Positions 23,635-53,298 of a stretch of 64,000 bases of DNA are shown in pieces. The position numbers and the translations under genes were made by a program. Location of the stretch: contig CM068826.1 in NCBI GenBank assembly GCA_028554795.2, forward strand, positions 103,046,346-103,110,345. Reading direction: 5' to 3'. Each line of letters opens with the position of its first letter. Positions within the stretch are counted from its first letter, which is position 1. Source of the stretch: Sinohyriopsis cumingii. Taxonomy: Eukaryota; Mollusca; Bivalvia; Unionida; Unionidae. The notes below the pieces were generated by a model. The model was given only the letters and a program-made list of their open reading frames with translations. It had not been told where the DNA came from and searched no databases.

Positions 23635-24007
23635 AGTAGTGAATGGGGGCACTTTAGCGACAATGGGAATTAGCATTAAAAACCACCCTGGGTCACTTTA
23701 GCGACAATGAGAAATTTAACATTACGAAAACCCCTGGGTCAGTTTAGCGACAATGGGAAATTAACATGGGAATATATTTTGGGTTTGTTGAGCGACAAGG
23801 GAAAGTTAACATGGGGAATAAATCGTGGGTCTGTTGAGCGACAAAGGAAATTTAACATGGGAGAAAAAAAGCAATTCTAGGGACAAGAGAAATTTAACAT
23901 GGGATTTTCTTTTTTTTTTAAAAATAAAAAATAAAAAAGGGGTAGGCAATTGAAAGTCGATCTCTTTTCGAGAAATGTGGGTGGCCCTGAAAAGGGCCTT
24001 TGGGTTT
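23635..24007. repeat. Left terminal inverted repeat of the Polinton
   Basis: It matches 52,921-53,298 in inverse orientation. The outer 250 bp hold six diverged units of about 45 bp with a core like GCGACAATGGGAAATT (starts 23657, 23701, 23747, 23792, 23838, and a decayed one at 23881). An A/T-rich spacer follows. The inner edge is the block GGCAATTGAAAGTCGATCTC plus a histone-type 3'-end signal on the minus strand. Confidence 0.93.
23983..23998 (-). terminator. Histone-type 3'-end stem-loop A (inside left inverted repeat)
   Basis: The minus strand reads GGCCCTTTTCAGGGCC: a 6-bp stem with a UUUC loop, preceded by AAA and followed directly by ACCCACA. After 14 nt comes AAAAGAG (23,962-23,968), which is complementary to the CUCUUUU of U7 snRNA. 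This is the arrangement at the 3' end of replication-dependent histone genes. It starts 18 nt after the stop of the coiled-coil gene ending at 24,017. Confidence 0.8.
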
Positions 24008-24016
24008 CTTCTTCTT

Positions 24017-24406
24017 TTAATTTCTTCTATTTCTCCACCAGCTTCTTATTTTCTGTCCTACACTCTTTCTCTTCTTTTCTTTCTTTTCTTCCTTCTTTTT
24101 CTCTTCTTTCTTCTTCTCCTCCTCTTCTTTCTTCCTCTTCTCATTTTCTTCTTCCTTTTCAATTTTTTCGTTCCATACTCTCATCCTTACCCTTTCCTCT
24201 TCATCCTTCTTCTCCTCCTTTATTTCTTTCATCAGATCACTTATCATTTCCTTTACTTTTCTTAAATTGTTGATCTCCATCTTCACTCGATGGGGACTAT
24301 AAGAATAGTGATCCTCGTTTAGCCTCACTAACATTTGCTCCATCATACCCAAATTGTCCAGGACGTCTTGCAATGTTTTCATTTTATCAAGTTGGTTTGA
24401 AGCCAT
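24017..24406 (-). CDS. Accessory coiled-coil protein 1 (129 aa, unknown function)
   Basis: It begins MASNQLDKMKTLQDVLDNLG. An N-terminal helical part of about 60 residues is followed by a long Glu/Lys-rich coiled coil (about 60-115) and a basic tail (GQKIRSWWRNRRN). A TATA-like CTATAAG lies at 24,457-24,463 and an initiator-like segment follows it. The reading frame is intact. It shares layout with the two genes to its right: a short N-terminal helical region with L-D/E-K-L and L-x-R/H motifs, then a charged coiled coil, the same promoter type and a histone-type 3' end. They look like diverged duplicates. I recognise no known family. Confidence 0.6.
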   Translation of the reverse strand: MASNQLDKMKTLQDVLDNLGMMEQMLVRLNEDHYSYSPHRVKMEINNLRKVKEMISDLMKEIKEEKKDEEERVRMRVWNEKIEKEEENEKRKKEEEEKKKEEKKKEEKKEKKRKSVGQKIRSWWRNRRN

Positions 24407-24456
24407 CTTCTTTTTTATTCTTTGTAGAATGGTTTGAACGACGAATACTGTGGGTT

Positions 24457-24545
24457 CTTATAGTGAAAGCGCGGACGTCCCCCTAAAACATAAAATTGAT
24501 ATTACCTCGATTATCACTTAAAACGCGCGGACGTGAAGGAAAACA
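24457..24545 (-). promoter_or_regulatory. Promoter of accessory gene 1
   Basis: The minus strand shows CTATAAG (24,457-24,463) preceded by the element ACGTCCGCGCTTTC (24,465-24,478). A second copy of the GCGCGGACGT core lies at about 24,522-24,532. The same elements in the same order, with the same intervening CCCCCTAAAAC and TTGATATTACC-like text, occur upstream of accessory gene 2. A 12-bp segment between them is missing here. Confidence 0.6.
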
Positions 24546-24650
24546 TTCCCAACTTTTCTCATTTCATATGATCTACTATTCACATACGTGTAGCAGCAAT
24601 AAACAAACTCCAAAATATACTATCCATACAAACGTACGTGAGCATTTACA

Positions 24651-24652
<2 letters not shown>

Positions 24653-24714
<62 letters not shown>
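24653..24714. repeat. (CA)n microsatellite
   Basis: About 31 CA copies, expanded inside one copy of a duplicated accessory-gene spacer. The other copy, near 25,525-25,560, has only scattered ACACA. Confidence 0.95.
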
Positions 24715-24715
<1 letters not shown>

Positions 24716-24802
24716 GGAAAAAAGAGTCAGTGTTTATATTCACATTACTCTACCTACACACATTGGCAAATCGATTACTATTTCTTTTCTAAAGGTTTGG
24801 GT

Positions 24803-24818
24803 AGCCCTGAAAAGGGCT
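24803..24818 (-). terminator. Histone-type 3'-end stem-loop B
   Basis: The minus strand reads AGCCCTTTTCAGGGCT, followed by ACCCA and then AGAAAAGAA (24,782-24,790). Compared with copy A, only the outermost stem pair has changed (A-U for G-C), and it still pairs. It lies about 90 nt after the probable end of accessory gene 2. Confidence 0.75.
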
Positions 24819-24906
24819 GTTTTTTTTTTTAACTCCATGGCACCTGGTTAATGATGGCACCTTCCAGGCCTGGCACCACACACACATCTTCTTCCCCAGT
24901 CTCTTT

Positions 24907-25192
24907 TCACTCTTTTTTGGGGGAGAGCAGAGGCGGCATAAGTGGCTTCAGAATCCCAATTTTCTGTCTCTGGGATTCTGAAATTTTCTTCTTGTGCTTG
25001 TCATACAGCCATTCCTCTCTCCTTTTCCTACTCTTCTTTTTTTCTTCTCTCCTCCTCTTCTTTGTTTCTTCTCTCCTCCTCTTTCATCCTTCCCTCTTCT
25101 ACAATGGCTTCCGCGGCCAGTTCATTTAGTATGTGCCTGGCATATTCCAGGTGCACATGAAGTTCCAACAGTTTTTCTAGCCTTCTGCTCAT
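24907..25192 (-). pseudogene. Accessory coiled-coil protein 2, frameshifted
   Basis: From ATG at 25,192 the frame reads MSRRLEKLLELHVHLEYARH followed by a Glu/Lys/Arg coiled coil, and stops at 25,028. The next frame stays open from there to a TGA at 24,907-24,909 and contains REEWLYDKHKKKISESQRQK. That segment resembles the R-EEW-V-YRLQKQQR part of accessory protein 3, so one indel near 25,030 probably broke the gene. The promoter and histone-type 3' end are intact. Function unknown. Confidence 0.5.
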
Positions 25193-25243: not shown

Positions 25244-25330
25244 AATTTATACTGAAAGCGCGGACGTGATGGAAAACATCCCCCTAAAACAAAATTGATC
25301 TTACCTGGATCATAACCAAACAAACGCGCG
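25244..25330 (-). promoter_or_regulatory. Promoter of accessory gene 2
   Basis: The minus strand has AGTATAAATT (25,244-25,253) preceded by ACGTCCGCGCTTTC (25,254-25,267). A second GTCCGCGCG core lies near 25,325. An initiator-like CAGTCTAGCTACCC follows the TATA box. The block aligns with the promoter of accessory gene 1. Confidence 0.6.
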
Positions 25331-25649
25331 GACCTAAAAGAAACACTCACTCACTTTTTATACTACCCATCACTATTCTAAAAAAAATTATTAAACAAAT
25401 AATATACTATCCGCATACGCAAAGCAATCCAATCAAACCCCAAATCTACTCTCCCCACACGTCAAACAGCAAAAAAACATCATCATAATCTACTATCCAC
25501 ACAAACGTACGTGAGCACTTACAAACACACAATCATATACACAAACACATATACTCACACTATGAAAAAAGAGTCAGTGTTTATATTCACACTACTCTAC
25601 CTACACATATTGGCAAATGGATTACTATATCTTTTCTAGAGTATTGGGT

Positions 25650-25665
25650 AGCCCTGAAAAGGGCT
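25650..25665 (-). terminator. Histone-type 3'-end stem-loop C
   Basis: The minus strand reads AGCCCTTTTCAGGGCT, then ACCCA, then AGAAAAG (25,631-25,637). It starts 27 nt after the stop of accessory gene 3. The surrounding sequence back to about 25,480 is a direct duplicate of 24,610-24,820. Confidence 0.77.
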
Positions 25666-25691
25666 GTTTTTTTGTTTGCTATGGCAATCTT

Positions 25692-31395: not shown

Positions 31396-31437
31396 TTTAG
31401 ATTTTAGTGCGTTTATGTAGTTCCTTAGTTTTCAGTT

Positions 31438-34248: not shown

Positions 34249-34366
34249 TTTATGTTGTTTTGTGTTTCCCCCTTTTTTCCGTTTATTTTTATTTTATGTG
34301 AGAATTTATTTTTATTTATTGCTTGTTTGTTGTTCTCTTGTTATTATATCATTCTGTTTATAATTA

Positions 34367-38338: not shown

Positions 38339-38893
38339 TTATTTTGGACAGGGCTGACAACGTTGTGAATGAAATTGTGATTTCCACTGTTGGAAGTCAT
38401 TAGGCCATTGATGGACACTACGTTTCCTAGCTTGAGACAAAAGATAAGCATAATGGTCACAAAACCATCGATCTACTTTCACATCGTTTCTAGAAGAAGA
38501 ACGAGGATCAAAATGAGTCACTAAATGTTCTAAGGAATAACCCAGACTGCGATGATGCAGAAAATACACACAGTACTGTCCACACACCAAGGAATCTGTG
38601 CCTTGTAATTTCACATTATTGAATCGGGTGGTCTGAGCATTTCTTCTCATAAAGTCAATGATATCGTCTTCCAAAGGGGGCAATCCATACGAATCAAAAT
38701 ATTCCACACATCCTTCTTGAGGAAGGTAGACGGCTACGGTTCCTGGGAGATGACTGTCGTCCGTGTTGATGACACAAGCTAGTTGGTCTTGAGGTTTGCG
38801 ATGAGGGAGTTCATTTTTAGCACATACGACAGGATTCCAAGAAGCAGTGTACGAACTGTGGTTCAAAAGGTAATAAAGTTCCCAGGTATCCAT
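38339..38893 (-). CDS. PRO: Adenain-type cysteine protease (Polinton PRO), probably inactive
   Basis: 184 residues, close to the family size. The Asp of YFDSYG and the catalytic Cys block (VCGQYCVYFL, about residues 103-112) are present. Adenain-type proteases mature virion proteins. The catalytic His normally sits in an HW pair directly before the VAVY strand. Here the text reads SHLPGTVAVYLP, as if those two codons were deleted, although the frame is otherwise intact. The His three residues before PGT is unlikely to substitute. The gene follows the Cys/His gene at 39,422 closely and ends in a poly(A)-type region. Confidence 0.85.
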   Translation of the reverse strand: MDTWELYYLLNHSSYTASWNPVVCAKNELPHRKPQDQLACVINTDDSHLPGTVAVYLPQEGCVEYFDSYGLPPLEDDIIDFMRRNAQTTRFNNVKLQGTDSLVCGQYCVYFLHHRSLGYSLEHLVTHFDPRSSSRNDVKVDRWFCDHYAYLLSQARKRSVHQWPNDFQQWKSQFHSQRCQPCPK

Positions 38894-38918
38894 GTTTTGT
38901 GTGGGTTTTTTTTCTTCT

Positions 38919-39422
38919 TCACAGGTAATAATAAGTCATCAATTGGATCCTGACTTTTTGCATGAAAATGTCTGACAAATAACCGTTTCTTCGTTTCGTC
39001 TCCCCACTCTGATTCAGAAGAGCTTCGATACGATGGATCTCTTGAGTGGTTAATGGTGGACAAGAATGTTCACGCAAGTCTTTATACCACTGATGCAACA
39101 CGACTTCGTCCGAGATGAGACTCCAAGCTTCGTCCAGATACTCGTTCAATTTTTCTTCTTGACTCAGCATTATGCATTTATCGTGTTGAATTTGACTGGG
39201 ATGATCGTTTTGACATCCATAGCAATCTTTCTTGATCAATTCCGTCATTTTTTCGACCAAGTGTTTGGCAAAACAGGAGACTAAATGGGCTTCTTGTTCT
39301 GGCCATCTTGACTTCATCATGATAACTTCTTCGACTTGGTCTTGAGATTCTTCTTCCCCGGTCTCCTCACATTCCATCTTCAAAGTTTCTCCACTAGGTA
39401 AAGAGGGATAACAGTCTTCCAT
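38919..39422 (-). CDS. Conserved Polinton protein with Cys/His motif (167 aa, C-terminus probably frameshifted)
   Basis: It begins MEDCYPSLPSGETLKMECEE. The signature DCYGCQNDHPSQIQHDKC (about residues 68-85) has the spacing of a zinc site, and I recall it from other animal Polintons beside the protease; its function is unknown. Another frame opens at about 39,063 and reads on as RHFHAKSQDPIDDLLLPVKK to near 38,900, which looks like the true C-terminus, so an indel near 39,020 is likely. The start lies 5 nt from the major capsid stop. Confidence 0.65.
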   Translation of the reverse strand: MEDCYPSLPSGETLKMECEETGEEESQDQVEEVIMMKSRWPEQEAHLVSCFAKHLVEKMTELIKKDCYGCQNDHPSQIQHDKCIMLSQEEKLNEYLDEAWSLISDEVVLHQWYKDLREHSCPPLTTQEIHRIEALLNQSGETKRRNGYLSDIFMQKVRIQLMTYYYL

Positions 39423-39427
39423 GGCTT

Positions 39428-40744
39428 CTAATAGTCTAGAATGTCTTCTCTCAAACTGTTGATTTCTATGGTATTGTCAAATTCTGCATACAGGAGGACG
39501 TTCACTGTGTGATCTGGACGTGGATTTGCAAACTGAAGTTCCATACGAATCTTACCCGATTTTATAGGGTGGAAATGTCCCTCGTCGCTGCCTTGGTCTG
39601 GAGTGAAATCAAAACCCCACAAAGCGTAGCCTCCTGCATAATCATCGTACGAAATACCGTGACTGGTGTTGGTTCCTAACTCTCCGGTGGCTTCGTACCG
39701 GGACAAGTACGATCTCAAATAATTCTTTGCGACACCAAAGTTGGGCTCAAAGGGTCGGGTACACAAGGTCTTGCCGTCGCGACTGACTTCGATCTTGGAC
39801 ACATTGTAATGTTGAAACTCAAAAGGATTTTGATCGTTGAAGGCTGAATTCCTGACGATACCAACAATCAAACGTTTGGGTAACTGTCCTTGGAACAGAT
39901 GATCTTCGATCATAGATCGCTGTCCAGCGGGAATGGTGAACGTTTTCACTTCTACGCGTCGTATCGGATACTTGGCGTTCGTTCTGCTCAACGTCTAACT
40001 GACGTCGTTTCCTACTTTAGGTAACACTTCCACACGACGCACGTAAAGTCGGGCTTCTTGAATGATAGTTTTGTATTCATTGGCATGGGCCATCAAATGG
40101 AAAGCGGCACTGCTACGATTCAGTCTCAGACGGATATCCACCCCGTTGAGCAAATACTTTTCTTGTAACCACATGTCCAAATGCAAACGATCCATCAGTT
40201 CTAAACTTCGCCCTTGCATAATTTTCTTACGACGGTCGTTAAACCCCACATTGTGAGGATTGTCATATTCTGTCAGGACTGTGTCGCTAAACGTGCCTAC
40301 ACCTGCCGTGTCAGGTTTCCATACCACGCAAGCATCCAGATGAGTATTCTTGGCTTCTTTTACGTACGTCAAGAGATTTTCCAGGTAGGCACGATATGGG
40401 TAAGTATCCATGCTGCTGCTGACCAGTTTGTTATTCAAGTACAAGTCCACTTCGCTGAACAAGGAATGCATGAAATTGTTGACAGGAGCTACTCTAGCAT
40501 CGCCTCCTGGATTGGTGTTGTCCGTTTTGATCACTTTCACTTTCAAATACAGGTAACTGCTATTCAGATCGATGTAATCTTCGGGTTGTCCTTTGATTTC
40601 AAACTCGATGGGAGCGGAATCCGTCAAAGAGGAGACGGGATGAAATTCCACCCACTGGGATTCTTGCATGGTCATCATGGTGGGGGGCATGGCAAACAGA
40701 TCCAGTTCCGACTTGGAACAAGCGCAAGACTCTCGGTGCATCAT
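39428..40744 (-). pseudogene. MCP: Major capsid protein (double jelly-roll), one in-frame TAG
   Basis: A single frame of 438 codons is interrupted once, by TAG at 39,995-39,997 (codon 250). The N-terminal part has the family signature MMHRESCACSKSELDL, then QWVEFHPVSSLTDSAPIEFE and EDYIDLNSSYLYLKVKV. The part after the stop includes FEFQHYNVSKIEVSRDG and ends DNTIEINSLREDILDY. This is the Polinton capsid family (C. elegans F54H12.2-like), which builds the icosahedral shell. Apart from the nonsense codon no damage is visible, so decay looks recent. The ATGATG start follows the pVI-like gene closely. Confidence 0.88.
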
Positions 40745-40774
40745 TTATTTCTCTTTCTGAATAATCGAAAACGT

Positions 40775-41167
40775 CTAAGTCTCGAACGGTTCTTCTTTTC
40801 TTTGCCTTTCTAGCTTTAGAAGTGTGGTGAAAGGGTATTTTCTTCGTCGTCTCTTTCTGCCTTGTCCTTGCTGAATGCCTGACTCGGTAGCGTGAAGGTC
40901 ATTTACAGGTGTGTCTCGTCGGCCCAAAAGGTCTTTGCCCGTTTGCAGCAAGACATTTTTGCCTGTCCTCATGAAGGCTTCTTTAGGATTTTGTTTGTCG
41001 ATGATGACATTTTGGAGAAATTCTTTGCCTTGCGTCAGTGTCGCATCTTTCAAGGCGTGCAATCCGCGTGTTACCATCGGTTTCAACACCGGGGCCACCG
41101 AACGAAAGGCCGATTTCAGCATATCTCCTAAACCGTGTCCTCGCTGTCGAGCAACCCCTCGGTACAC
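40775..41167 (-). CDS. pVI-like minor virion protein (130 aa), start codon apparently lost
   Basis: The frame opens at GTG 41,167 with YRGVARQRGHGLGDMLKSAF; there is no in-frame ATG before an upstream stop. An N-terminal Gly-rich amphipathic helix (GLGDMLKSAFRSVAPVLKP) and a basic GRKRRRRK segment near 105 recall adenovirus pVI-like proteins, which act in membrane disruption and capsid stability. The usual ATG has probably mutated to GTG. A neighbouring frame continues with a basic tail to a stop overlapping the capsid ATG, so the last 15 residues here may also be shifted. Confidence 0.55.
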   Translation of the reverse strand: MYRGVARQRGHGLGDMLKSAFRSVAPVLKPMVTRGLHALKDATLTQGKEFLQNVIIDKQNPKEAFMRTGKNVLLQTGKDLLGRRDTPVNDLHATESGIQQGQGRKRRRRKYPFTTLLKLERQRKEEPFET

Positions 41168-41179
41168 TGGATATATGAC

Positions 41180-42112
41180 TTACGAGTCGTGAGAGAACCG
41201 GTTTCGAAAATGGAGTTTCACCGTGACTTTTCCTTTGGTGAATGGAATATTTTGTCCCAGATCTCCTTTTATAGCAATGTTGACCGTGTCCAAATAAGAC
41301 TTACTGACAGGCAAATAGTGAGGATGTACAAATTCGCGGTGAACGTGGTAAGTGTTTCCACCTTCCTCGTCAGCGTTCGTGGCAGAATCCATTTTGAAAG
41401 GAATGACACGCAGTAACGGCACAGAGGTGTGTCCCACCACGTTGTACTCCACCACATCGTAGTACACAAACATCAAATTCAGTCTTTGGTTCAGTTCTAT
41501 CGGGGCACGAAATAACTTGCTAAAAGACTCGTTGTCGTAAATGATTGGTAATTCCTTTTTCTTGAGCATGGCCTTTCTCATGTCCATGTCTCCGCCCAAC
41601 ATGTCAAACAATTCAGGACAAAATAAAATGGACACGATTTTACTCCCGTCAAATTTCATCAAGAAGCGACGAGCTGCTTTGTGGTATTCCATGGTGACAC
41701 TTTTTTTGACACTTTCCAAAGCTTTCAGAAACACGACATTAAACCTGGAGGTTATGGTGCTCACCAAATGTTGACCACTAAAATAATAGCCTGGGGGAAC
41801 GAACAAGTGATAGGTGGTGTACTTTTGATTTTTTGTGACAGGGGTTTTCTTGTCATATTTGCCATAGGTATCCAAGTACTGTTGCAATTGTTCGTAATGA
41901 ACTTCCACATCAAAAAATTTTTGATTGGGAAGAACACTGAGGACTTGAGTCGGGTGAATGATTTCTACTAAAGCCACTTCCCAATGGACTTCGTGATCTA
42001 ATGGGATGGTCTGAGGTAATTTGGCCGTGTAACAGCACAACGTGTTCTTGGGAAACACCTCCAAGGAACTGTCACTGGGTAAGGTTAAGTAAAATTGGTT
42101 TTGGTGACTCAT
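41180..42112 (-). CDS. Penton / minor capsid protein (310 aa)
   Basis: The frame is intact. The start MSHQNQFYLTLPSDSSLEVF, followed by FPKNTLCCYTAKLPQTIPLD and WEVALVEI, is the signature of the Polinton PY protein, now viewed as the single-jelly-roll penton at capsid vertices. The middle contains PPGYYFSGQHL, and the C-terminal KGKVTVKLHFRNRF also fits. Its ATG overlaps the stop of the upstream membrane-protein gene (ATGA), as in compact viral gene blocks. It is one of the few core genes with no visible defect. Confidence 0.88.
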   Translation of the reverse strand: MSHQNQFYLTLPSDSSLEVFPKNTLCCYTAKLPQTIPLDHEVHWEVALVEIIHPTQVLSVLPNQKFFDVEVHYEQLQQYLDTYGKYDKKTPVTKNQKYTTYHLFVPPGYYFSGQHLVSTITSRFNVVFLKALESVKKSVTMEYHKAARRFLMKFDGSKIVSILFCPELFDMLGGDMDMRKAMLKKKELPIIYDNESFSKLFRAPIELNQRLNLMFVYYDVVEYNVVGHTSVPLLRVIPFKMDSATNADEEGGNTYHVHREFVHPHYLPVSKSYLDTVNIAIKGDLGQNIPFTKGKVTVKLHFRNRFSHDS

Positions 42113-42519
42113 AATTCCAGAGTTCTGTGGCTGTCCGTGGGGTTACTGGACGTCAGAGGAGTGTCTCCGCCCAAAATAGGGTTGTTGTTGTTATTGGAGT
42201 GGTGACTGACACTGGCACTGGACACAAGGTTCCCCTGGTTCCCGTTCGAGGAGAATTTCAGGGAGGGATTGGGAAGCAGGTAACCGATGCAACTGCTCAA
42301 TAAAATGGTTCACAGTTGTTTGTCTCCTTGTTGCAAACTCAAATTGGCAATGGCTGCCCCGATGACACAATACACCACGAAGATTTGGCAGAAAAAGACT
42401 ATTTGCGTTTTAGGCACACGTTCTCCACACCACACCCACAAGGGTTGTTTTTTTAAATCTTGCAGAGAAGAACTGGATGAAGGAGTGGTCGACGTAGCTG
42501 CGTCTGTGTGAAAGGGCAT
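42109..42519 (-). pseudogene. Small Polinton membrane protein, one in-frame TGA
   Basis: From ATG 42,519 the product has a hydrophobic segment (IVFFCQIFVVYCVIGAAIAN, about residues 38-57). After a TGA at 42,310-42,312 the same frame continues with SSCIGYLLPNPSLK and an Asn/Ser-rich tail. I recall a conserved GYLLPNP protein from other Polintons; its function is not known, but a virion membrane or scaffold role is possible. The replaced residue is probably Trp. The stop overlaps the penton start. Confidence 0.7.
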
Positions 42520-42524
42520 GATGG

Positions 42525-43635
42525 TCACTTCTTTTTATAGTTGATGACTTGCGAAGCGTCGATCCAAGAATCAAAACTGGGTGGATATCCTTTCCAACGT
42601 ACTTTGACTTCTTTGACACGTCGTTTACCTACTTTACGGGTTCTGCGTTCGAGAATGCTTTCGATGTCGTACACGTCGCCTTCATTTTTGGTGACACGTT
42701 GTAACTCGGGCAAACAAAACGTTCCTTTGAGCACTTCTCCGTTCATGTCTTCCAATTTATAGACGGCAGGATCACGGCCATGCACTCGTCCAGTGACGCG
42801 AAACAATTCGGTCGTCCAGTTAGGTAAGTAACCTTTGTCGAAAGTGCGTTTGGTTTTGCCAATGCGCACCCAATCTCCTACGGTCAACACTCCACTTTTC
42901 TTGGGGGCAGCCCTCGTCGGGGACGTACCAAACAGGCGCTCAAACAAAAGCACTTCGTTCTCGGGAGTCACTTCTTGCGGGGCACGTCCGATGCTTCGAT
43001 GGTAAGATTGGTTGTACGCTTGCACCAGGTGCGGTAAGATGTCGACGTACTTCAGAGTGTGGTGATGCGTAAAATATTTCCACATGCGTTCTTTCAAAGT
43101 GCGTTGAAAACGTTCCTCGATGCTGGCTTTGGTTTCGGGATTCTCGGTGGTAAAAAAAATGAATGTCACGTTTCTTTAATTCTTTTTGGAAAGCTTGGTT
43201 CAGAAATTCGGTGCCTTTGTCCGTTTGCCATCGAAGAGGGTGACGACCGCTTTGTTTCAACACCCGTTGCAGGGCTCGCACTAACTCGGTGCTCGATTTG
43301 GAAGTCAATGCTACGACCCAGGAAAATTTGGAAAAGGCGTCGATGACACAAAACAAATATCTGTAGCCACGATTGTAGCTGGCCAAATGAGAGACATCGG
43401 CTAAATCGGCTTGCCATTGATGATCGATGCCTTCCACTCGGGTGCGACTTCTGGAAAACTTGCGTCGAATGGGTTTGTGTAAAGTGTAGGTAGCTTGTTC
43501 TTGTAACCATCGTTGCACTTGAGGTAAACGGAGACTTTTCAGTCGAGTTTTGGCAGCACGATACAATTTTTGAACTCCTGCGTAACCTGCAGGATGGGAG
43601 GGATCGTAGTAAATGCTGGCTAACACTTTTTCCAT
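42525..43635 (-). pseudogene. INT: Retroviral-type integrase with C-terminal chromodomain, frameshifted
   Basis: ATG 43,635 begins MEKVLASIYYDPSHPAGYAG. The DDE core is visible as WQADLADV (first Asp, about 43,410), WQTDKGTEF (second Asp, about 43,220) and NPETKASIEERF (Glu, about 43,120). The frame changes between the second Asp and the Glu, at an A8 run on the plus strand (43,152-43,159). The C-terminus holds YDIESILERR and VRWKGYPPSFDSWI, a chromodomain that may steer insertion by reading histone marks. Integrases of this type insert Polintons and make 6-bp duplications, matching CACGTA. The homopolymer position means a sequencing error cannot be excluded. Confidence 0.9.
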
Positions 43636-43649
43636 TTTGTGTTTGTGTG

Positions 43650-44267
43650 TTAATACGGCACCCACTCTTGGAAGATGCTACTCTTTTTCTCTTGGGGTAC
43701 TTTCTTGGATTGCAATGCTTTGCGTGTGCGACCAGCAATAGGTGTCGCAGAGGAGGATGTCGGAACAGGGGATATCGGTTCTTGTTTCACTTCTGTCTTC
43801 ACTTCTGTCTTCACTTTCTTTTTCTCTTGTGATGAAGAAGGGGTGGTCATCATCTTTTTAATCCATCCAATTCTGGAGGTAGGTGGTGTTGTTAACTTGC
43901 GTACTTTTTCTGGTGGAGTTTGAAACCCTTCCTCTTCTTTTTCTGTCTTGGTCACTGGTAGTGGTGGTACTAGTGATGGTGCTGGACTTTTCATCAAGGT
44001 CTTAAAATCTTTCAGAGTGGGTAGAGCTGTTTCGTCTAAAGCTTTCTGGTGAAAGAGTTGTAATCGTTGCAAGAGTTGACCGTACTTTTGCGATTTTTCT
44101 GTTTCGGACAAATCTTGGCGATCCATCAAGGACTGCAATTCGTATTGTAACTGGGACATTTCGTTCAAATGGGGATTAGGAGGTAAATGCGGGGTGCGTT
44201 GTTCTTGCCAAGGATGGTATTCCATCCATCGTTTGTAAGGCACTAAAGCTAGTTTTCGTCCTTCCAT
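43650..44267 (-). CDS. Conserved Polinton protein of unknown function (205 aa)
   Basis: An intact frame begins MEGRKLALVPYKRWMEYHPW. A predicted helical region (SQLQYELQSLMDRQDLSETE, about 38-75) is followed by a low-complexity Pro/Thr/Lys-rich half with PTSRIGWIKK near 130. M-x-x-RK-x-x-LVP openings with a helical D-L-x-E-x-E-K segment occur in Polinton genes next to the integrase, as far as I recall. A virion core or scaffold role would be a guess. Confidence 0.6.
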   Translation of the reverse strand: MEGRKLALVPYKRWMEYHPWQEQRTPHLPPNPHLNEMSQLQYELQSLMDRQDLSETEKSQKYGQLLQRLQLFHQKALDETALPTLKDFKTLMKSPAPSLVPPLPVTKTEKEEEGFQTPPEKVRKLTTPPTSRIGWIKKMMTTPSSSQEKKKVKTEVKTEVKQEPISPVPTSSSATPIAGRTRKALQSKKVPQEKKSSIFQEWVPY

Positions 44268-44316
44268 GGGGTTGTCAAGGGTCGATTCTGAGATCTTGGG
44301 ACTTCAGAGGGCCTTT

Positions 44317-44721
44317 TTATCTTGCTCCCATCAGTCCTCCCAACATGGTTCCCAAGACTCCTTTCAGTAAGGGACCTAACAAGAGGGGTAAAATGCCTCC
44401 ACGATGGACCAACATCTTCTTCTTTTGACGAAGGGGTTTTTTCTTTTGAACCATTTGGCGAAGAACGTGACGATGTTTGCCTAAGCATTGTTTCTGGTGT
44501 TTGGACAAAAGGATCGTACCTTTCAAGACGTTCAAACAACATTCGCACACGGTATCGGTGACCTCTTTGGAAGCTGATTGGATGAGTTTTTTTCGTAGGG
44601 GTGGAGAAGCTTTGGACAGGACAGATAACATGTCCCCATGTTTGACTAAACGTGGAGGCAGTCCTTTCCTTTGCTTTCCTTGGGGTTGTTTAGAAGAGGG
44701 ATGTTTTCTGGAGGGTGACAT
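44317..44721 (-). CDS. pX/PX2-like basic Polinton protein (about 134 aa)
   Basis: From ATG 44,721 the product is Lys/Arg-rich with LSKASPPLRKKLIQSASKEV, then VCECCLNVLKGTILLS and KKKMLVHRGGILPLLLGPLL near the end, closing with a Gly/Leu hydrophobic stretch. I recall the combination of a CEC--N-L-G block, basic middle and RGGxLPxLLxP terminus as widespread in animal Polintons; it recalls adenovirus pX/mu, a DNA-condensing core peptide. The frame is intact. A TATA-like TATAAAAAA lies at 44,767-44,775. Confidence 0.7.
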   Translation of the reverse strand: MSPSRKHPSSKQPQGKQRKGLPPRLVKHGDMLSVLSKASPPLRKKLIQSASKEVTDTVCECCLNVLKGTILLSKHQKQCLGKHRHVLRQMVQKKKPLRQKKKMLVHRGGILPLLLGPLLKGVLGTMLGGLMGAR

Positions 44722-44769
44722 CTTCAGGAGCACCAAAACACTGATACCCTACTTGGTCACACACCTTTT

Positions 44770-45729
44770 TTATACTGGAACGCGTCGCCACTGATTGTCT
44801 TTACGTCGCATCAACTTCAGGACAGGCATGACACGTCGTGCAGGGGTACGTAACGGACTAAATCGAGCCAGTTCTTGCTTGGACAAATCCAGTAAACTTT
44901 GTAACATGCCCGATCTTTCTTGGACTTTGATTTTGGGAGAAGGTACTTTGTGAGCAGCAGCCACTACCACTAAATTTGAGGGTCCTGCCACTGGGGAAGT
45001 TCTTGGGGTCATCAACGGAGAAGTTCTTGGTGTGATCAACGTCTCCAAGTACTCTTCAGTTCTTGGTGTCATCAACGGAGCAGTGGATGAACTTGAGGCT
45101 GCCGGAGACGCAGTCACCGCTGTGGCAGGTCGTGGTTTGCGAGTGTAAGGTTGCGTCCTGGCCGAAGTGCCTCTGTTGCGACTAGTTTTCTTCTGTGGAC
45201 TTTTCTTTTTCTGGGGGCTTTTTCTCTGTTTCTTTTTCTGGGGGCTTCTTTTCTTTTTCCGGGGTGGTGTCTGGTAAGAGGAGGGTCCCGCCACTGGAGA
45301 AGTTCTTGGAGACACGGGTCTCCTTGGAGACCTGGTCTTTTTCTTCTTCTTGGAGCTTCGTTTGACTTTTTTCTTGGGGAGAACTTTAGGGGCATTAGGA
45401 TCCCATCTTAAGAGAGAGCGAATGATGACCCCTCCTAGAGTACCGCTCCCTCCAGGTTTCAAAATGATTTGTTTTTTGGTTTGAGTGTCGATGCGGGGAT
45501 CGGCCAGTTAGGTCAAAGCGACATTGTTTCGATCAAAAAAGCGTTTGGTTTGATGAGGAATCTGAATGATCCCTTGTAGTAATTGACGTGCCGTCACCGT
45601 GAACCATCGTAAGACTTCTTTGAGACTAGCTTCTAAGACACGAGCTCGTGTTTGTGGATTTTTTTCTCGACTGATGCCATACAAGGCACGAATCAATTTG
45701 ACGGGAAGATGCGACTGAAGGGACGTCAT
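44770..45729 (-). pseudogene. Basic core-like protein with one in-frame TAA
   Basis: From ATG 45,729: MTSLQSHLPVKLIRALYGIS, then RWFTVTARQLLQGIIQIP. TAA at 45,508-45,510 interrupts the frame, which continues without shift into KPGGSGTLGGVIIRSLLRWD and a long Lys/Arg/Ser/Pro region with repeated SPRR, SPQKKK and TPRTSP motifs resembling histone H1 tails. It ends in a helical QSLLDLSKQELARFSPLR segment. The composition suggests a DNA-condensing virion core protein, like adenovirus pVII/pV by analogy only. A TATA box (TATAAAAA) lies near 45,770-45,778. Confidence 0.7.
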
Positions 45730-45816
45730 GTTCAAAATGTGTGTGAGACAGACGAAAAGTGTCTGAGGTTTTTATAGATTTTTTGTGGAATGAAGTTAAG
45801 TCGAGGACGGAGACAT

Positions 45817-46522
45817 TTACAGGACAGGCCCTCCGTCTTGGCACCAGTGGTGAAACAAGTGGGTACGAAATCGCAAATCATCGGGGTCGTAGGTTTCAAA
45901 TCGACAAGTAAATAGGCGTGTGGAGTTTGAGTGGCATCGTCGTACGCCTGGTCAGCCAAGGTGTCCCTAACTGTTTGGCTAAGACTTGCACTTGCGATTT
46001 ATCTCGAGGGCTTTTAAACAAGACCACGTAATGCGCATTGAGACTGATGGTGCGATGGGCTTTACTTTGTTGAAAGAAATTTTGAGTGATGTAAACGACA
46101 CTGGCATTACGATGATGCCCTTTGCCCGTGAACCACAGTTTAATTTCTTCTTCGTCTTCTCCTAACATGTCGTCAAAAATGACCAAATGGGTTTGACGGG
46201 AGTCAGAGACGATTCCGTCGTCTTCTTTAGGAATGCCTTTCACAAACACGATGGAATCGCCTTGACTTTCTCGCAAGAGGCTGTACGCCGATTGCCACTC
46301 TTTGTAACACCACACGATGCGCTGAGGTGGACGATCGATCAAATGATGTTTATGTTCGATCAAGCGTTTGACGAATTCGGTTTTGCCTGAACCGCTAGGT
46401 CCAGCAATGAGCATGTTAAAGGGATGGCGAAGATGCAAAGCCTCCCAACTGGCACGATCTAAGTGTTCGTCGATGACTTTGACAGTGGAGGAAGAGGGAG
46501 TAGAGACAGCAGAGGTAGCCAT
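45817..46522 (-). pseudogene. ATP: FtsK/HerA-type packaging ATPase, two frameshifts
   Basis: MATSAVSTPSSSTVKVIDEH starts a frame with Walker A GPSGSGKT (about residues 42-49), Walker B HLVIFDDML (about 111-119) and the conserved VVYITQNFF strand. This is the Polinton A32-like ATPase that pumps DNA into capsids. The frame changes near 45,960 and again near the G4 run at 45,883-45,886; the expected C-terminal frame ends at TAA 45,817-45,819. A TATA-like element lies at about 46,568-46,577. Confidence 0.9.
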
Positions 46523-46583
46523 AGTGTGAGGAATGTCACTTATGACACGAAAACAAACAAGACGAGAGTTTATATACTTTTTT

Positions 46584-46605
46584 CAGGACACGTTTATTGA
46601 ATGTT
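46584..46605 (-). terminator. Poly(A) signal after the small membrane protein gene
   Basis: The minus strand reads CATTCAATAAACGTG directly after the stop at 46,606, a conventional AATAAA. Exact position within this interval is approximate. Confidence 0.5.
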
Positions 46606-46951
46606 TTAAACATGAATATGAAAGACAAAAATACATAAAAGCCAAAGACTTAAGTATAACGATAAAAGGCACATGATAACCATCAACGTGGAATAAAAAC
46701 AAGTGTCTGTACAACATGTTTTGGGTAATGTTCTGACCAGTTCTATAGGGGGTAAGGTCACACAAGTGTCCTCCCGAAAGGGTCTTTCGGGGATGTCCAC
46801 GACAGTCCCGTCCTGGGTGATGGGTTCTTCTGGTATTGTCACTAACACAGGTTGAAAAGTCGCAAGGCTCACAATCGCATTCCACTTCAGAAGCCCCACA
46901 CTTGAATTGTGCCTTTCTAAACTTGTTTTGTGTTTCTCTGAAAGTATTCAT
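46606..46951 (-). pseudogene. Small Cys-rich protein with C-terminal membrane segment, frameshifted
   Basis: ATG 46,951 opens MNTFRETQNKFRKAQFKCGA with clustered Cys (VECDCEPCDFSTC). After about 38 codons the adjacent frame takes over as IPEEPITQDGTVVDIPERPF and a strongly hydrophobic end (TLMVIMCLLSLYLSLWLLCI), a probable membrane anchor. The two parts complement each other, so one indel near 46,840 is likely. It lies 32 nt after the polymerase stop. Function unknown. Confidence 0.5.
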
Positions 46952-46983
46952 CTTGTTCGCTTGGTCTTGGTAGTCACAATGAA

Positions 46984-49900
46984 CTATCGATCTTGCCTAG
47001 GGTTCCTTTTGATATACAGACCAATACCGGCGTGTCCATACGGCAAGGTGAAATGATTGGGAAGTCGCACTCGCTTCTGGTACACGATTTGATAGACTTT
47101 TTCCAAGGGTCGACTGACGATATGGTGAGTGGGTAAACGTACAATCTTGTTGGGTTGATAGGTGGTCACTTTAAAGTGTTCATCCTCTCCAGATTGCAAG
47201 GCTTCTTTCAATACCCCAAAGTTGACCACACGACTGGTACGATAATTCAGAGTCAATCCTTTCACTTTACACTTCGTGTGCACTTCTCCTTGTGGGTCCC
47301 GGTATTCGTAGCCGTAATTTTTTGGACCGCCACTGACGAAACTTAGAATCTTGTCGTCGGGATGCTCGTCTGTCCAGGCTCCTAAACGGTCTCCTTCGAT
47401 GTCAGGGTGCTGTTGACTCGGGTGATGGATTTAAATGCAACTGTCCGTGTCAAAGTACAGGACGCGTTCCGCTAACAGTTCTAAAGCTTCGTACAATTTT
47501 AAGCGAGCATGAGCTGTCACGTAAGCCGCAATGATGACATTTCCAAAAGGGTCGTCTTGTACAAAGTCCAGATCTTCTTCGTAATTGACCAAGATCCAAT
47601 CCTCGCGAACGACGTCCACGTGTTTCATGAATTTGGTTTTGTCGTGAATCATCTGAAAGTAGCGGTAAGGTTCTGTCAAATACTCCGTCTAGGGTAAACA
47701 CGGACGTTGTGCCATTTTACCCCACAAGCAATTTAACATCACTTTGGCAAACGATCGCCTGCCTTCGTTTTTCTCGATGTGATCTAAAGTAATGCCTTCT
47801 TGTGCCCAGTATTTCTCTTTGAATGTCTTTTGGTCTTCGGGAGTGTGACACCAGGAAGGATAGCCACTGGCTTCTTGTTTCAGTTTAAAAAAGGCATCCA
47901 CGTAGTCGGCGAAGATGCCTTTCTGACTGGGGTCACCCTTGTGGTATTGTTGTGTCTTGGGAAAGTGACAAATTTCGTATACTTCTAACAGTTGATATCC
48001 CATGTCCAGAGCTTTGAACAATTCTACGCTGACCCAGGTTCCCATCAAAGCCCGTTCTTCCTGGGTGTGCTGACAAGGCTGATCTTGGTTGCACGTTTCG
48101 GCACAAGTACGGCACAAAGGAAACATCAGTTTGCCTTGGCAATGCTGAGGTAAGACGGGATGGTACAAGTCCTTGGGAGGCAAAACTTTGCACTTGATCA
48201 AGCCTTCGTATTGTCGAATGTTTTTCAGGTCGATGTGTTCCGTGAACAATTGTGGGTGCCCTGCAGGAAAGCGACAATATTTGCACACGTAGGGATACAG
48301 CGAACACACGTCCAAGTATTTGATTTCTTCTCCTTTCTCTTCGTCGGCTTGGTACAGCAAACAGGTGGCATTGGTCCTTCCTCCGTACAAACTATCCCTC
48401 GGGTTCAGCGGGTCCATGAACTGGTAACTTTCCACGAGGCGTTTAAACTCGGGATCGGTTTTAAAACGGTGATAGTATTCGTGTTCCCACATTTCCACCA
48501 CTTGGTATCCTTGCTGGTGTAACTTTAGGCGTCGCTGACAAGTGGCCTGGTACAAGTCTTCCATGGTTCGTTGTAAAAACTGATTTTTAGTGCCACGGTC
48601 AGGGTAACAGACGGGACATCCGTGAAATAAGCAACCGTTAAACTCGTACACGATCTTGGGATTTTCTAAGTCCCAGCCATCGACTGAATGCGTTCCGATG
48701 GTCTTTTCGCCCCCTCCGTTGCGGGCATGCTGAATCCATTTGTCTTCCTTGTCGCACAAGTAATGTAACCAGCGTAGGGCTTTGACCGAGTATTGACGTT
48801 TGACAGAGTTGGTCGTTTGAGGACTGATGACAGCCACGGTGTTTTCAGGCATGAATCTTTGCCAGTACACTAAGGAACACGCTTTGGCAATGGTGCCAGC
48901 TTCTTTCAAAGGATCGACCCCTCCGTGTTCCATGAACAGTTCTCGAAATTTTCCACAGCAACGTCGTAAAATGTCCACGTCGGAACGACAATACTTTAAC
49001 ATTTCTTCCTGAAAGTCGAAAGGGTCCGAGGCGTGAGCCTGGTACCAAGCGTAGAAAGCTTCTCGTTGTTCGGTACGCATGTTGTCGGGGTCGTAATAGT
49101 GAGCCTCAGGCAAATGGGGTAGAACGGCATGTTGATTGGCTTCCGTATTGAAAAAGTGTGGAAAGTACCCTTTAGCCATTTCTGTCATTCCAAACGTTTT
49201 AGGCATTCGGCTCAAAGGCATGGCCAAGTAATTCATCGAATCTTTAAACTGTACTTGTCCCACTTGCATGAAAATGATTTTGGCTCCGTTCAAAGTCACT
49301 TTAGGACGCTCGGTGCCTTGTTCCGTATAGTATCTCAAAAGAAACTATCCATCGTATCCGGAGAAATTGTGAGCCATCACCGTGGCATGACGATGACAAT
49401 CTCCGTAACGTTCGATGTCCTCTTGGCTCCACGTCTTGTCGATGGGGTCTAAGACCCATTGGGCAAAATCGGCTAGCGTGTTCGGTCCCCGAAAGATTTT
49501 TTCACGTCCTCCAGGAATCTTGCTGCAGTGAGGGCAATGACTGAAGATAGGTTCTTGAATGCACTTCTCGCACGCTCGATGAGCCACGCAGAAATTAGGA
49601 ACGTGAATGCCAGTCTCTTGCATGCATTCGAAATCGAAAAAGATGAAATTGCCTTTCTTCTTGCGACCGTCCTCTTTCTCTGGTGGGGGCTGTTATTTTT
49701 GCATGTAGCATTGGTGTTCCAAGTCCACGATGTGGTGACAAATGTGACATTTTTTCTTTCCTGAACATACATGTGCCTTGGCACTGTTGGTACGTATGCC
49801 TTGTCCACACGTAGGGCACATTCTCAGCAGTTGACAAGCACTTTTCTGCTGTGAACCTTGCGTCTTCAGATGTTGTTGGTAATAGGTAGGGCTGACAAAC

Positions 49901-51046
49901 GTGCGCAGACAAGCTGGACAATGCACTCGTCCTTCGTTCAGACAGGGTGGAGAGGAAAAACATCCTGAGCATTTCGATCCGCAATGTTTGTGTTGTTCTC
50001 GATTTTTATAGCCATGGTCACATTTCTCACAGTAATAAGCATATCCCAGGAATTCGGTGATACTGGTAATGGTATCGAAATGGTCATCGTGATAATAGAC
50101 ATGAATGTATTTTCCATCTTTAAAGTCTTTCCCTCGAAACAACAGCGGCCCACGCATTTCTTGAGGGTGCACTTTCAAGCTGTAGCGTGGAGCTAGGACA
50201 TCTTGCAATGTTTGCATTTCATGAATGCCACAGGGTGTGTCTTTGGACAGGCCGGCTTGTTGCAACAGGAGTTCTGCTTCACTTCGTTGTTTGGCTCGGT
50301 CGGATCGTTGAATAGTTTTCCAGGCTCTTTTCCATTCTACCGTGTCGTTTTTGTTAGCATAGGTTCGTCCCACCACGATAGCCCTGGCTAAACACATCTG
50401 GCCTTGAGGGTTGTGAATTCGGACGAGACTCTTTTTGGTGCTGCGAACGTCGTTCACCAATAAGACTTTTTTTGCGGCCAGTCCCTTGAGGAGGAGAGAC
50501 GTGGGTCATGTCCAGCGTGGCTTTTCCATCGGTGATGTCAAACTGGTCATTGGATTGTTGCACGTGTTGAATCTTGTCCATGACTTTGGAAGGGGTCAAT
50601 TCTGCAGGGCTGCTAAACTCGATCCAAACAGGGGATTTCAAACCGTTGTGTTGTATGGAAAGTCTCAAGCGATCGTCTTCTTTGGGTTGACATTGTTGCT
50701 TGAGTGAGGTGAGCAAAGAATCCCACACGCCGGTGATGAACCCTTCTGCTTTCTGTAACGGTACTTCAACCTTGAAATCTTTAAACTTCACCGTGTATTT
50801 GTAAGCCGTGGTTCTAAATTTTCTAGAGGAGCGCCTTTCCGTCTCTCGAATGGAATAGTACTTTTCAGGGTTGACTGAGGGTGGTGAACTTTGTTTAGAG
50901 GGTTCGGATTCTGGTTCACTCATGTCCTCTTCAAAATCACTGGCATGAATTTGTGCCAAGACTTCAGCCCTAGTACGAGGCGATAGATCACGTTTCTGCC
51001 TCTTACTTTCTTCGTCTTTCTTCTCTAATGAATTGGATCCTTTCAT
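46984..51046 (-). pseudogene. POLB: Protein-primed DNA polymerase B, broken by one frameshift and four nonsense codons
   Basis: The gene spans about 1,350 codons. The N-terminal region (MKGSNSLEKKDEESKRQKRD, then YKYTVKFKDFKVEVPLQK) ends at a frameshift in a T7 run (50,467-50,473, plus strand). Then come a Cys/His-rich zinc-binding array (about 50,040-49,700), Exo I FIFFDFEC (about 49,640), Exo II HNFSGYDG (about 49,360), polymerase motif A YLDVCSLYP (about 48,310), motif B NCLWGK (about 47,735) and motif C YFDTDS (about 47,445). In-frame stops are TAA 49,693-49,695, TAG 49,345-49,347, TAG 47,689-47,691 and TAA 47,431-47,433. The enzyme would replicate the element from a protein primer at the inverted repeats. 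All catalytic motifs remain readable. Confidence 0.93.
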
Positions 51047-51180: not shown

Positions 51181-51624
51181 ATGGAAGAGACTAGCCAAAT
51201 CGAACGTTTCATCAGAGCTTTGCGAGGGGTCATTTGAAAAGTTTCTTCAGACCAGCCTCAGCCTTCGGACTACTCTCCTTCCTTTCGAGATAAAAGTGAA
51301 GATACTTGCTATATCTGTCAGAAGAAAGGGCATTGGTCTTCAGAGTGTCCAGACCGTCAAAAAAGAAAAACAGGGGTTAAAAGAGACAAAAGTCAAGATA
51401 CCTGTTATTATTGTCAAGAAAAAGGACATTGGTCTCCAGATTGCCCAAAAAAGAAACAAGAGGAGTCAGAAGAAGAGAGGGATTTTTCAGAGGAAGAAGA
51501 GGAGGAAGATAGCAGACAGGTGAAGAAAAAGAAACAGGAGAAGAAAAGAAGAAGGGAAGAAAGTGAGGAGGAAGAGGAGGAAAAGACTGTGACGGTGAAG
51601 AAATTTAAAAAACAGAGAGACTAA
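51181..51624 (+). pseudogene. Two-knuckle CCHC zinc protein, one in-frame TGA (147 codons)
   Basis: The plus-strand frame starts MEETSQIERFIRALRGVI, meets TGA at 51,235-51,237 (codon 19), and continues unshifted to TAA 51,622-51,624. Two CCHC knuckles are CYICQKKGHWSSEC and CYYCQEKGHWSPDC, separated by a basic linker. They are followed by alternating acidic (SEEERDFSEEEEEED) and basic (VKKKKQEKKRRR) runs. CCHC knuckles bind single-stranded nucleic acid and are typical of retroviral Gag; a knuckle protein is not part of the standard Polinton gene set as I know it. It has its own TATA box and an AATAAA near 51,706. The TGA is probably a nonsense mutation (CGA or similar); readthrough is the alternative. 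Confidence 0.7.
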
Positions 51625-51703: not shown

Positions 51704-51712
51704 AGAATAAAT
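51704..51712 (+). terminator. Poly(A) signal of the zinc-knuckle gene
   Basis: AATAAA within GAATAAATT, about 80 nt after the stop. This gene does not use a histone-type end. Confidence 0.55.
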
Positions 51713-51868
51713 TAGGTATAAAAAGGTAAGTGTCTGAGTTTTGATTTTAAATAAGAAGCTACACTCATGCACTCATATACACGTACTATATGGGTAAAAT
51801 GGTTTATTTTGTTTTGTTTTTTTAGTTATTGGCAATTGAAAGTCGATCTCTTTTCGAGAGAAGTGGGT

Positions 51869-51884
51869 GGCCCTGAAAAGGGCC
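51869..51884 (-). terminator. Histone-type 3'-end stem-loop D (internal copy)
   Basis: The minus strand reads GGCCCTTTTCAGGGCC, then ACCCAC, then AAAAGAG at 51,848-51,854 after 14 nt. The block back to about 51,831 (GGCAATTGAAAGTCGATCTC) is nearly identical to the inner edge of both inverted repeats, so it is a third copy outside them. It begins 26 nt after the stop at 51,910. Confidence 0.8.
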
Positions 51885-51909
51885 TTTGGTTTTTGGTGTA
51901 GGGGTGAGT

Positions 51910-52461
51910 TTAAGCAATCAACTTTAACTGCCTTAAGCCTTTGCCACGGCCGAGGCCTACTTCTGATGATGATGATTTGGTTGAAATCACTAAGGGTGGT
52001 ACGGTAGGCTTAGTCACAGGGTTGGCGTGTTTAGCTCGGGAAGGTCGTATTCTCTTCGGTCGTGATAAAGAAGTCTGATACATTTGTTTCAGACTTCTTA
52101 ACTCCGCTAAAATGTCTAACAGTACCGTGACCGTTTGATTTTTCACCCTCTTGTTTCTTTGCTGCTGCTTCTTCTTGTTGTTTTGTTTTTTTCTTACCTC
52201 TTCTTGCTGTTGTTGCTGTAAAAGAAAAGCTTGTTCCGCTTCCTTTTGTCGTTGTATAAATTTCTCCAATTCTTCTTTCTGTCTTTGTCTAAAATTCTCC
52301 ACGTGTGGTAATGAAGGTGACGAAGGTTCCGGAACAAATTCTTGCGAGGTAAGAAAATCCACAAAATCCCAATTCACCTCTTCTGAAAGTAAGTCCGGGT
52401 TCCCTTGTGTAGTCTCCACTGCTGGTGCACCCCAATGGATCGTTTTCTGAGTTTCCGTCAT
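51910..52461 (-). CDS. Accessory coiled-coil protein 4 (183 aa, unknown function)
   Basis: MTETQKTIHWGAPAVETTQG opens an intact frame. An acidic N-terminal third is followed by a Gln/Glu/Lys coiled coil (about 58-105, KEELEKFIQRQKEAEQAF), a helix (LLDILAELRSLKQMYQTSL, about 114-132), and a basic Ser/Thr-rich tail ending GLGRGKGLRQLKLIA. General layout, coiled coil plus basic tail and a histone-type 3' end, matches accessory proteins 1-3, but direct sequence similarity is weak. It could be a regulator or DNA-binding protein; nothing in the sequence decides this. Confidence 0.6.
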   Translation of the reverse strand: MTETQKTIHWGAPAVETTQGNPDLLSEEVNWDFVDFLTSQEFVPEPSSPSLPHVENFRQRQKEELEKFIQRQKEAEQAFLLQQQQQEEVRKKQNNKKKQQQRNKRVKNQTVTVLLDILAELRSLKQMYQTSLSRPKRIRPSRAKHANPVTKPTVPPLVISTKSSSSEVGLGRGKGLRQLKLIA

Positions 52462-52504
52462 GTTGAATCACTGTCTCGCATCGATTGACTGCACACAGGC
52501 GGTA

Positions 52505-52600
52505 GCGAATCTATATAGACCACGTGACGTCACAGACTGTTCTCTTCGGATTGGATGCGAGCTGATTGAATTTTGTAACGCGTGTTTGGATTGGTCAATG
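52505..52600 (-). promoter_or_regulatory. Promoter of accessory gene 4: TATA, CRE/E-box and CCAAT elements
   Basis: TATA-like TCTATATAGA lies at 52,510-52,519. Adjacent are an E-box CACGTG (52,521-52,526) overlapping a full cAMP-response palindrome TGACGTCA (52,525-52,532), and ATTGGTC (an inverted CCAAT box) near 52,590. Such elements respond to host transcription factors. Confidence 0.5.
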
Positions 52601-52630
52601 AACTCAATCCGTTTCAATCCTTCCTCTACC

Positions 52631-52639
52631 TATAAATAA
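52631..52639 (+). promoter_or_regulatory. TATA box of the right-end plus-strand gene
   Basis: TATAAATAA, about 90 nt before the first usable ATG. Together with the accessory gene 4 promoter it makes a divergent promoter region of about 260 bp. Confidence 0.55.
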
Positions 52640-52721
52640 GCGCAGTTCACTGCATTGATTTACCTGTTCTCGTCGCCTCAGCATATGGACTGACGTTGAA
52701 TCTTCCACCCTTGTGTCAACA

Positions 52722-52910
52722 ATGATGTTCAGGACGGACATACCGATGTATGTCCGATCCGAATGGACAGTTGTCCATAGGACCGCCAGCAACCTATGGA
52801 TACGTAGGATTTACGTGGAGAGGCAAGGATACCTCAAAAGAGTCCTGATTTACGGTCCTACAGTGAGACGAAGCCTAAGGACAAGAAGTCACAGATGCCC
52901 TTCATGTTGA
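52722..52910 (+). CDS. Small basic right-end protein (62 aa, unknown function)
   Basis: ATG 52,722 gives MMFRTDIPMYVRSEWTVVHR, then Arg-rich LWIRRIYVERQGYLKRVLIY and a terminal RRSLRTRSHRCPSC. TATA upstream and a histone-type signal starting 19 nt after the stop support it as a real short transcript. No family is recognised. An upstream ATG at about 52,685 opens only a three-codon frame. Confidence 0.5.
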   Translation: MMFRTDIPMYVRSEWTVVHRTASNLWIRRIYVERQGYLKRVLIYGPTVRRSLRTRSHRCPSC

Positions 52911-52920
52911 GGGCATATAT

Positions 52921-53298
52921 AAACCCAAAGGCCCTTTTCAGGGCCACCCACATCTCTCGAAAAGAGATCGACTTTCAATTGCCTACCCCATTTTATATTT
53001 TTTTATTTTTAAAAAAAACAAAAAAAAAATCCTATGTTAAATTCCCCTTGTCCCTAGAATTGCTTTTTTTCTCCCATGTTAAATTTCCCTTGTCGCTCAA
53101 CAGATCCACGATTTATTCCCCATGTTAATTTCCCTTGTCGCTCAACAGACCCAAAATATATTCCCATGTTAATTTCCCATTGTCGCTAAAGTGACCCAGG
53201 GGTTTTCGTAATGTTAAATTTCCCATTGTCGCTAAAGTGACCCAGGGTGGTTTTTAATCCTAATTCCCATTGTCGCTAAAGTGCCCCCATTCACTACT
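52921..53298. repeat. Right terminal inverted repeat of the Polinton
   Basis: The inverse of 23,635-24,007 with small differences. It contains stem-loop E at its inner edge and the same roughly 45-bp subrepeats (TTCCCATTGTCGCTAAAGTG type) outward. Confidence 0.93.
52930..52945 (+). terminator. Histone-type 3'-end stem-loop E (inside right inverted repeat)
   Basis: The plus strand reads AAAGGCCCTTTTCAGGGCC then ACCCACA, and AAAAGAG at 52,960-52,966, 14 nt after the stem. It is the mirror copy of stem-loop A and follows the small plus-strand gene. Confidence 0.8.

Follow-up and report, generated by a model that had tools for sequence, protein, structure and literature searches.

Candidate histone-type 3' processing signals behind a subset of accessory genes in a Polinton of the bivalve Sinohyriopsis cumingii

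In this report we take up one narrow question about a single mobile element: how do the messages of its accessory genes end? The element is a 29.7-kb Polinton (positions 23635-53298) in a 64,000-nucleotide (nt) stretch of the genome of the bivalve Sinohyriopsis cumingii (contig CM068826.1 of assembly GCA_028554795.2, positions 103,046,346 to 103,110,345), which we call the window, and the five stem-loop sites that concern us, A to E, all lie inside it. Our answer, drawn from comparison of sequences, is that some of the accessory genes of this Polinton, though not all, are very probably followed by working signals of the kind that form the 3' ends of histone messenger RNAs (mRNAs), which the element keeps.

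Five modules and the genes they follow

Each of the five sites consists of a 6-bp stem, a TTTC loop and, immediately after the stem, ACCCA, at the places and on the strands that the initial annotation had given them (Table 1), and all five match RF00032, the histone 3' stem-loop model of Rfam, at 31-42 bits (cmscan of 22000-54000). The gathering score of that model is 34; A, D, and E stand above it and B and C just below, with E-values of 4.3e-6 and 2.9e-5. At gathering score, the whole window holds three RNA-family matches in total, and these are A, D, and E. The downstream element that had been claimed for all five is indeed present in all five, with one correction to its form: AAAAGAG occurs only in A, D, and E, and the core common to every site is GAAAAGA, 13 nt past the stem.

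Could such an arrangement have come about by chance? Two hundred dinucleotide shuffles of the element gave a mean of 0.04 stem-loops with ACC and of 0.005 that also had the downstream element (the real element has five), and a pattern fitting all five sites matched once in a 257-Gb bacterial and archaeal collection. With the covariance-model E-values, these two results rule out a chance origin of the stem-loops. Five sites are not five independent cases, however, because A and E are copies in the two terminal repeats, D is a copy of these, and B and C are tandem duplicates of each other, which leaves two module lineages. Stem-loop, ACCCA, and GAAAAGA together fill 28 columns, of which 26 do not vary among the window's module types; of the 31 remaining columns behind the stem, only 13 are invariant. 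The two variable columns among the 28 are the outer pair of the stem; its compensated change in B and C, which the initial annotation had pointed out, is real but counts as a single event, since B and C arose by tandem duplication.

Another short string, TTGCC (module columns 55-59, for example 51831-51835), lies 13 nt past the downstream element and is invariant in 5/5 sites despite differing flanks; at site D in other copies it shows 2 mismatches in 90, and we can name no role for it in histone processing.

Modules A, C, D, and E begin 18-26 nt past the stop codon of an open reading frame (ORF), all on the sense strand, and B lies behind a broken ORF, in whose region a second frame has its stop some 90 nt ahead of the stem. 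If the sites are treated as independent (they are in fact related), the probability that at least four of five would fall within 30 nt of the stop of a sense-strand ORF of at least 60 amino acids (aa) is 9e-6. That accessory genes end in the signal holds for ORFs A, C, D, and E; it does not hold for a zinc-knuckle frame that converges on ORF D and serves as an internal contrast, without a stem-loop and with AATAAA 82 nt behind it. The signal thus belongs to a subset of the accessory genes. For the core ORFs, of which 17 were examined, the 600 nt following the stop are free of stem-loops in every case; behind the last of them, an AATAAA stands 110 nt downstream.

The genes themselves are not histones: ORFs A, C, D, and E have no Pfam match to histone families. 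A descent of the accessory proteins from histones, which we also entertained, finds no support in Pfam, and the PHROGs matches are weak (E 0.011 or worse).

Copies in the host genome and the host's histone genes

The host genome (2.9 Gb in 1138 contigs) was searched with RF00032, and the best 75 of 589,472 first-look candidates were scored, all of them over the cut-off, and the surroundings of each were read. The list is ranked and incomplete, since the stem-loops of the one histone repeat examined (35.0-39.4 bits) are not among the best 75. Spread over many contigs, every one of the best 75 aligns to the Polinton at E 1e-8 or better, and in every one the stem itself falls in a part that can be aligned with either the terminal repeat or the D module. 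The initial annotation had named absence from related elements, or a frequency after ORFs no higher than in shuffled sequence, as a result that would speak against it; we found the reverse. By their upstream sequence, 29 of these matches are of class E, 23 of class D, and 15 of class A, and 8 are without a class. In 65 of the 75, an ORF of 50 aa or longer has its stop no more than 60 nt ahead of the stem. ACCCA follows the stem in 74/75, AAAAGA stands at 14 nt in 72/75, and GAAAAGA at 13 nt in 57/75.

At least four ORF families, judged by eye, precede the stems: those of A, D, and E and a fourth, which replaces ORF A at the left end with the same terminal-repeat module behind it (L005, L024, L026, L028, L040, L058, L070, L071, and others). 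At one locus, L041, a frame like the core ORF at 38339-38893 of the window runs into the end of the fourth family, with the stem-loop 23 nt past its stop; this is apparently a deletion copy. As for relatives elsewhere, none appeared in viral contigs scanned by protein and by pattern, and none was found in a phage collection by tblastn with the ATPase.

A set ranked by the score of the stem-loop is a poor place in which to ask whether the stem-loop is conserved. The nearest substitute for copies chosen without it is site D, which lies about 1 kb from site E: of the 29 loci that site E had picked out, 20 were inspected at site D, a sample less biased than the score-ranked set. ORF D is present in 20/20, and the module can be aligned in 18 (at L092 the stretch ends first, and at L099 other sequence follows). 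Mismatches to the window copy number 7/288 in the stem-loop, 3/90 in ACCCA, and 0/126 in GAAAAGA, as compared with 16/144 in the spacer, 32/230 in the next 13 nt, and 267/2421 downstream; the tail of ORF D has 82/2489. Pooled, the functional columns differ at 10/504 (2.0%) and their neighbours at 315/2795 (11.3%), with a nominal p of 1e-13 whose underlying cells are not independent, given the shared ancestry of the copies. Taken singly, each of the 18 loci keeps the functional columns better than the columns around them.

The host's own histone genes offer the natural comparison. Matches to them form tandem repeats of about 8.3 kb (150 scored), and one repeat, L085, holds five histone ORFs, each with a stem-loop, which we assigned from the ORF sequences to H3, H4, H2B, H2A, and H1. 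In H3, H4, and H2B, GAAAAGA stands 13 nt past the stem; in H1 the distance is 14 nt, and H2A has GAAAAGG, likewise at 14. The downstream element of the Polinton has the same core and the same spacing (its pairing with U7 being putative), so that the Polinton carries what reads as the downstream code of its host's histone genes. The Polinton spacers differ from those of the L085 repeat, and hence no recent copy of those histone ends is seen. An interpretation in terms of histone-type processing, as the initial annotation had offered, is supported by this likeness and by the processing columns being kept better than their neighbours.

The element and its other contents

A 6-bp target-site duplication, CACGTA, flanks the element, and its two ends, when the terminal repeats are aligned to each other, open with an identical 16 nt, AGTAGTGAATGGGGGC; inward, the repeats extend as far as about 8 nt upstream of stems A and E. 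Between them lie the genes expected of a Polinton/Maverick: a family B polymerase (DNA_pol_B_2, 2.2e-35; protein-primed in type by its family, the priming mode being putative), an A32-type ATPase (Pox_A32, 2.9e-8), and an rve integrase (4.1e-14) with which Pfam also detects a chromodomain. The ORFs at 38339-42112, where the capsid and protease genes of a Polinton would be expected, have no Pfam match and no credible sequence match in the PDB; they are putative genes of a double jelly-roll capsid protein and an Ulp1-type protease.

Table 1. Positions of the modules, genes, and terminal repeats in the window
Feature	Positions	Strand	Remarks
Module A (stem-loop, ACCCA, GAAAAGA)	23958..24003	-	RF00032 41.8 bits
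Module B	24778..24823	-	RF00032 31.1 bits, under the gathering score of 34
Module C, tandem duplicate of B	25624..25670	-	RF00032 33.3 bits; 162-nt repeat, 87%
Module D, internal 63-bp copy of the terminal-repeat module	51844..51889	-	RF00032 38.5 bits; 95-97% repeat
Module E	52925..52970	+	RF00032 39.5 bits
Accessory ORF A, 129 aa, Lys/Glu-rich	24017..24406	-	stop 18 nt before stem; no Pfam family above cut-off
Broken accessory ORF B	24911..25192	-	start 25192, stopped within about 55 codons; three frames
Accessory ORF C, 122 aa	25692..26060	-	stop 26 nt before stem
Accessory ORF D, 183 aa, predicted as a long helix	51910..52461	-	stop 25 nt before stem
Accessory ORF E, 62 aa, shortened, divergent from D	52722..52910	+	stop 19 nt before stem
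Zinc-knuckle frame	51238..51624	+	zf-CCHC E 3.4e-14; no stem-loop; AATAAA at 51706
Core genes: polymerase fragments, ATPase, integrase and chromodomain, capsid/protease-region ORFs	38339..51046	-	Pfam
Left terminal inverted repeat	23635..24007	.	inner edge is module A; aligned with right repeat
Right terminal inverted repeat	52921..53298	.	inner edge is module E

A single-sequence model of ORF D (mean predicted local distance difference test, pLDDT, 73.8; predicted template modelling score, pTM, 0.38) is essentially one long helix. The E ORF of the window is shortened, since among the best 75 matches 22 of the 29 E-class copies read 75-78 aa. We tried ORFs A and C as paralogues, and the BLASTP match (E 0.044) is unconvincing. 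The interval between the divergent ORFs D and E (52461-52722, 260 bp) contains, by eye, two GATTGG (CCAAT-type) and TATA-like boxes, and the layout is reminiscent of divergent histone gene pairs; we do not claim these boxes as S-phase promoters.

Several further observations concern the element as a whole. Within 27532-36272, it is interrupted by a long interspersed nuclear element with endonuclease, reverse transcriptase, and RNase H, and a second insertion-like ORF (34584-36272, 562 aa) has the look of a transposon and no Pfam match. The outer parts of the terminal repeats (23638-23900 and 53025-53295) are built of diverged 45-46-nt units with an TTGTCGCT... core, possibly a protein-binding array. 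A 37-nt motif with the core CGTCCGCGC recurs at 24513-24549, 25246-25282, and 38061-38097; two of its copies lie upstream of ORFs A and B and the third beside the transposon-interrupted region, where it may mark the promoter of an accessory gene since lost.

A proposed use, its rivals, and its known relatives

If the established histone pathway is a guide, then host SLBP would bind the stem-loop of the accessory mRNAs, the host U7 small nuclear ribonucleoprotein would pair with GAAAAGA, its endonuclease would cut after ACCCA, and the messages would end without poly(A). By analogy with histone mRNAs, we lean towards the further proposal that S phase, with the host's replication machinery then at hand, is the main time at which the accessory mRNAs build up and are translated, and that the core genes use ordinary poly(A) signals. 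A module set into each terminal repeat at its inner edge would close the outward-running end genes inside the Polinton, and a signal housed in the repeat would stay in place when the accessory gene adjoining it is exchanged. Put in its fullest form, the proposal (that this Polinton lineage makes non-histone mRNAs without poly(A) by way of host SLBP and U7, with an accessory set gated to S phase and a signal fixed in the terminal repeats, the gene beside it being exchanged) seems to us probable, with real room for doubt.

What speaks against working histone-type signals should be set down in one place. The flanks after the stem in the host histone repeat are ACACA, ACAAA, ATACA, ACACA, and ACTTT, not ACCCA. 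The best 75 matches were ranked by score, so that conservation within that set is biased, and even there 10/75 start farther than 60 nt from any ORF stop (the distance is 66-95 nt in six and 473 and 1048 nt in two more, and the stretch read around the last two contains no such ORF), 18/75 lack an exact GAAAAGA at 13 nt, and 3/75 (L003, L004, L018) lack AAAAGA at 14. The element of A, D, and E can fold into a small second hairpin. Finally, stem D is followed by an AATAAA on its own strand, at a distance of 61 nt.

This last fact suits a different arrangement, in which the stem-loops bind SLBP and poly(A) signals farther downstream determine the 3' ends. There is precedent for it: C. elegans histone genes are reported to have a conserved poly(A) signal past the hairpin (PMC1924863). 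The same paper describes the feature as not common to the histone genes of other organisms, however, and in the Polinton no AATAAA or ATTAAA occurs within 600 nt after stem A, those of B, C, and E are 384-404 nt away, and the U7-type element is kept at site D without a mismatch. We consider this arrangement improbable. Somewhat better placed, if still doubtful, is the idea that the module is a compact terminator, closing outward genes at the terminal repeats with no control by the cell cycle. Genes A and E do point outward, with their ends where the repeats have their inner edge, but the internal B, C, and D have the module as well, and a signal read by SLBP and U7 would, in the animals studied so far, be expected to bring coupling to S phase with it.

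Two other possibilities deny the module any part in RNA processing. It might be a passive, functionless relic of a captured histone 3' end, copied along with the element, as its duplication in blocks could suggest; we find this very improbable, for a relic should not differ less than its neighbours in 18/18 aligned loci, nor be carried by a different ORF family. Or the hairpin might act at the level of DNA, in the replication or packaging of the terminal repeats (where two of the five copies do lie), its likeness to histone ends being fortuitous. To this we give almost no credence: the match extends over ACCCA and the downstream element at the spacing of the host's histones, and B, C, and D are internal, with the sites on the sense strand behind ORF stops and 0.005 expected per shuffle.

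Suppose, then, that the modules are working histone-type signals. A mobile element that uses the histone type of ending would be an exception to the rule, cited in the initial annotation, that among animal mRNAs only those of histones are generally known to end in this manner, bringing a non-histone class of animal mRNAs into the SLBP/U7 pathway and offering natural non-histone substrates for SLBP and U7. It would also give concrete, testable form to the idea that Polintons could couple part of their expression to the DNA replication of the host, and the many Polinton copies may load the host's histone-processing machinery. RNA sequencing that selects for poly(A) would have missed transcripts that lack it. 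The initial annotation knew of no precedent, and among the open-access papers searched, judged by title and abstract opening, none reports 3' ends of the histone type for a mobile element, be it a Polinton, an adintovirus, or another.

How does the Polinton stand beside the systems already known? With the 3' ends of metazoan replication-dependent histone mRNAs it shares the stem-loop, the cleavage flank, and the purine-rich downstream element, in the same order and at the same spacing, and in both cases short, intronless-looking ORFs have the stem soon past the stop; unlike histone genes, its genes are non-histone and reside in a mobile element, and they have ACCCA where the host's histones have an ACACA-type flank. 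With Polintons/Mavericks and adintoviruses it shares a polymerase B, an A32-type ATPase, an rve integrase with chromodomain, terminal inverted repeats, and a 6-bp duplication; what sets it apart from these elements as reported is the presence of histone-type 3' signals behind accessory genes and in the terminal repeats. A last comparison is with the 'Histoid' of adomaviruses, reported as histone-like proteins of animal DNA viruses (PMC11071296): both cases link the biology of DNA viruses to that of histones, the Histoid by resemblance of protein and the Polinton by the end of its mRNAs alone.

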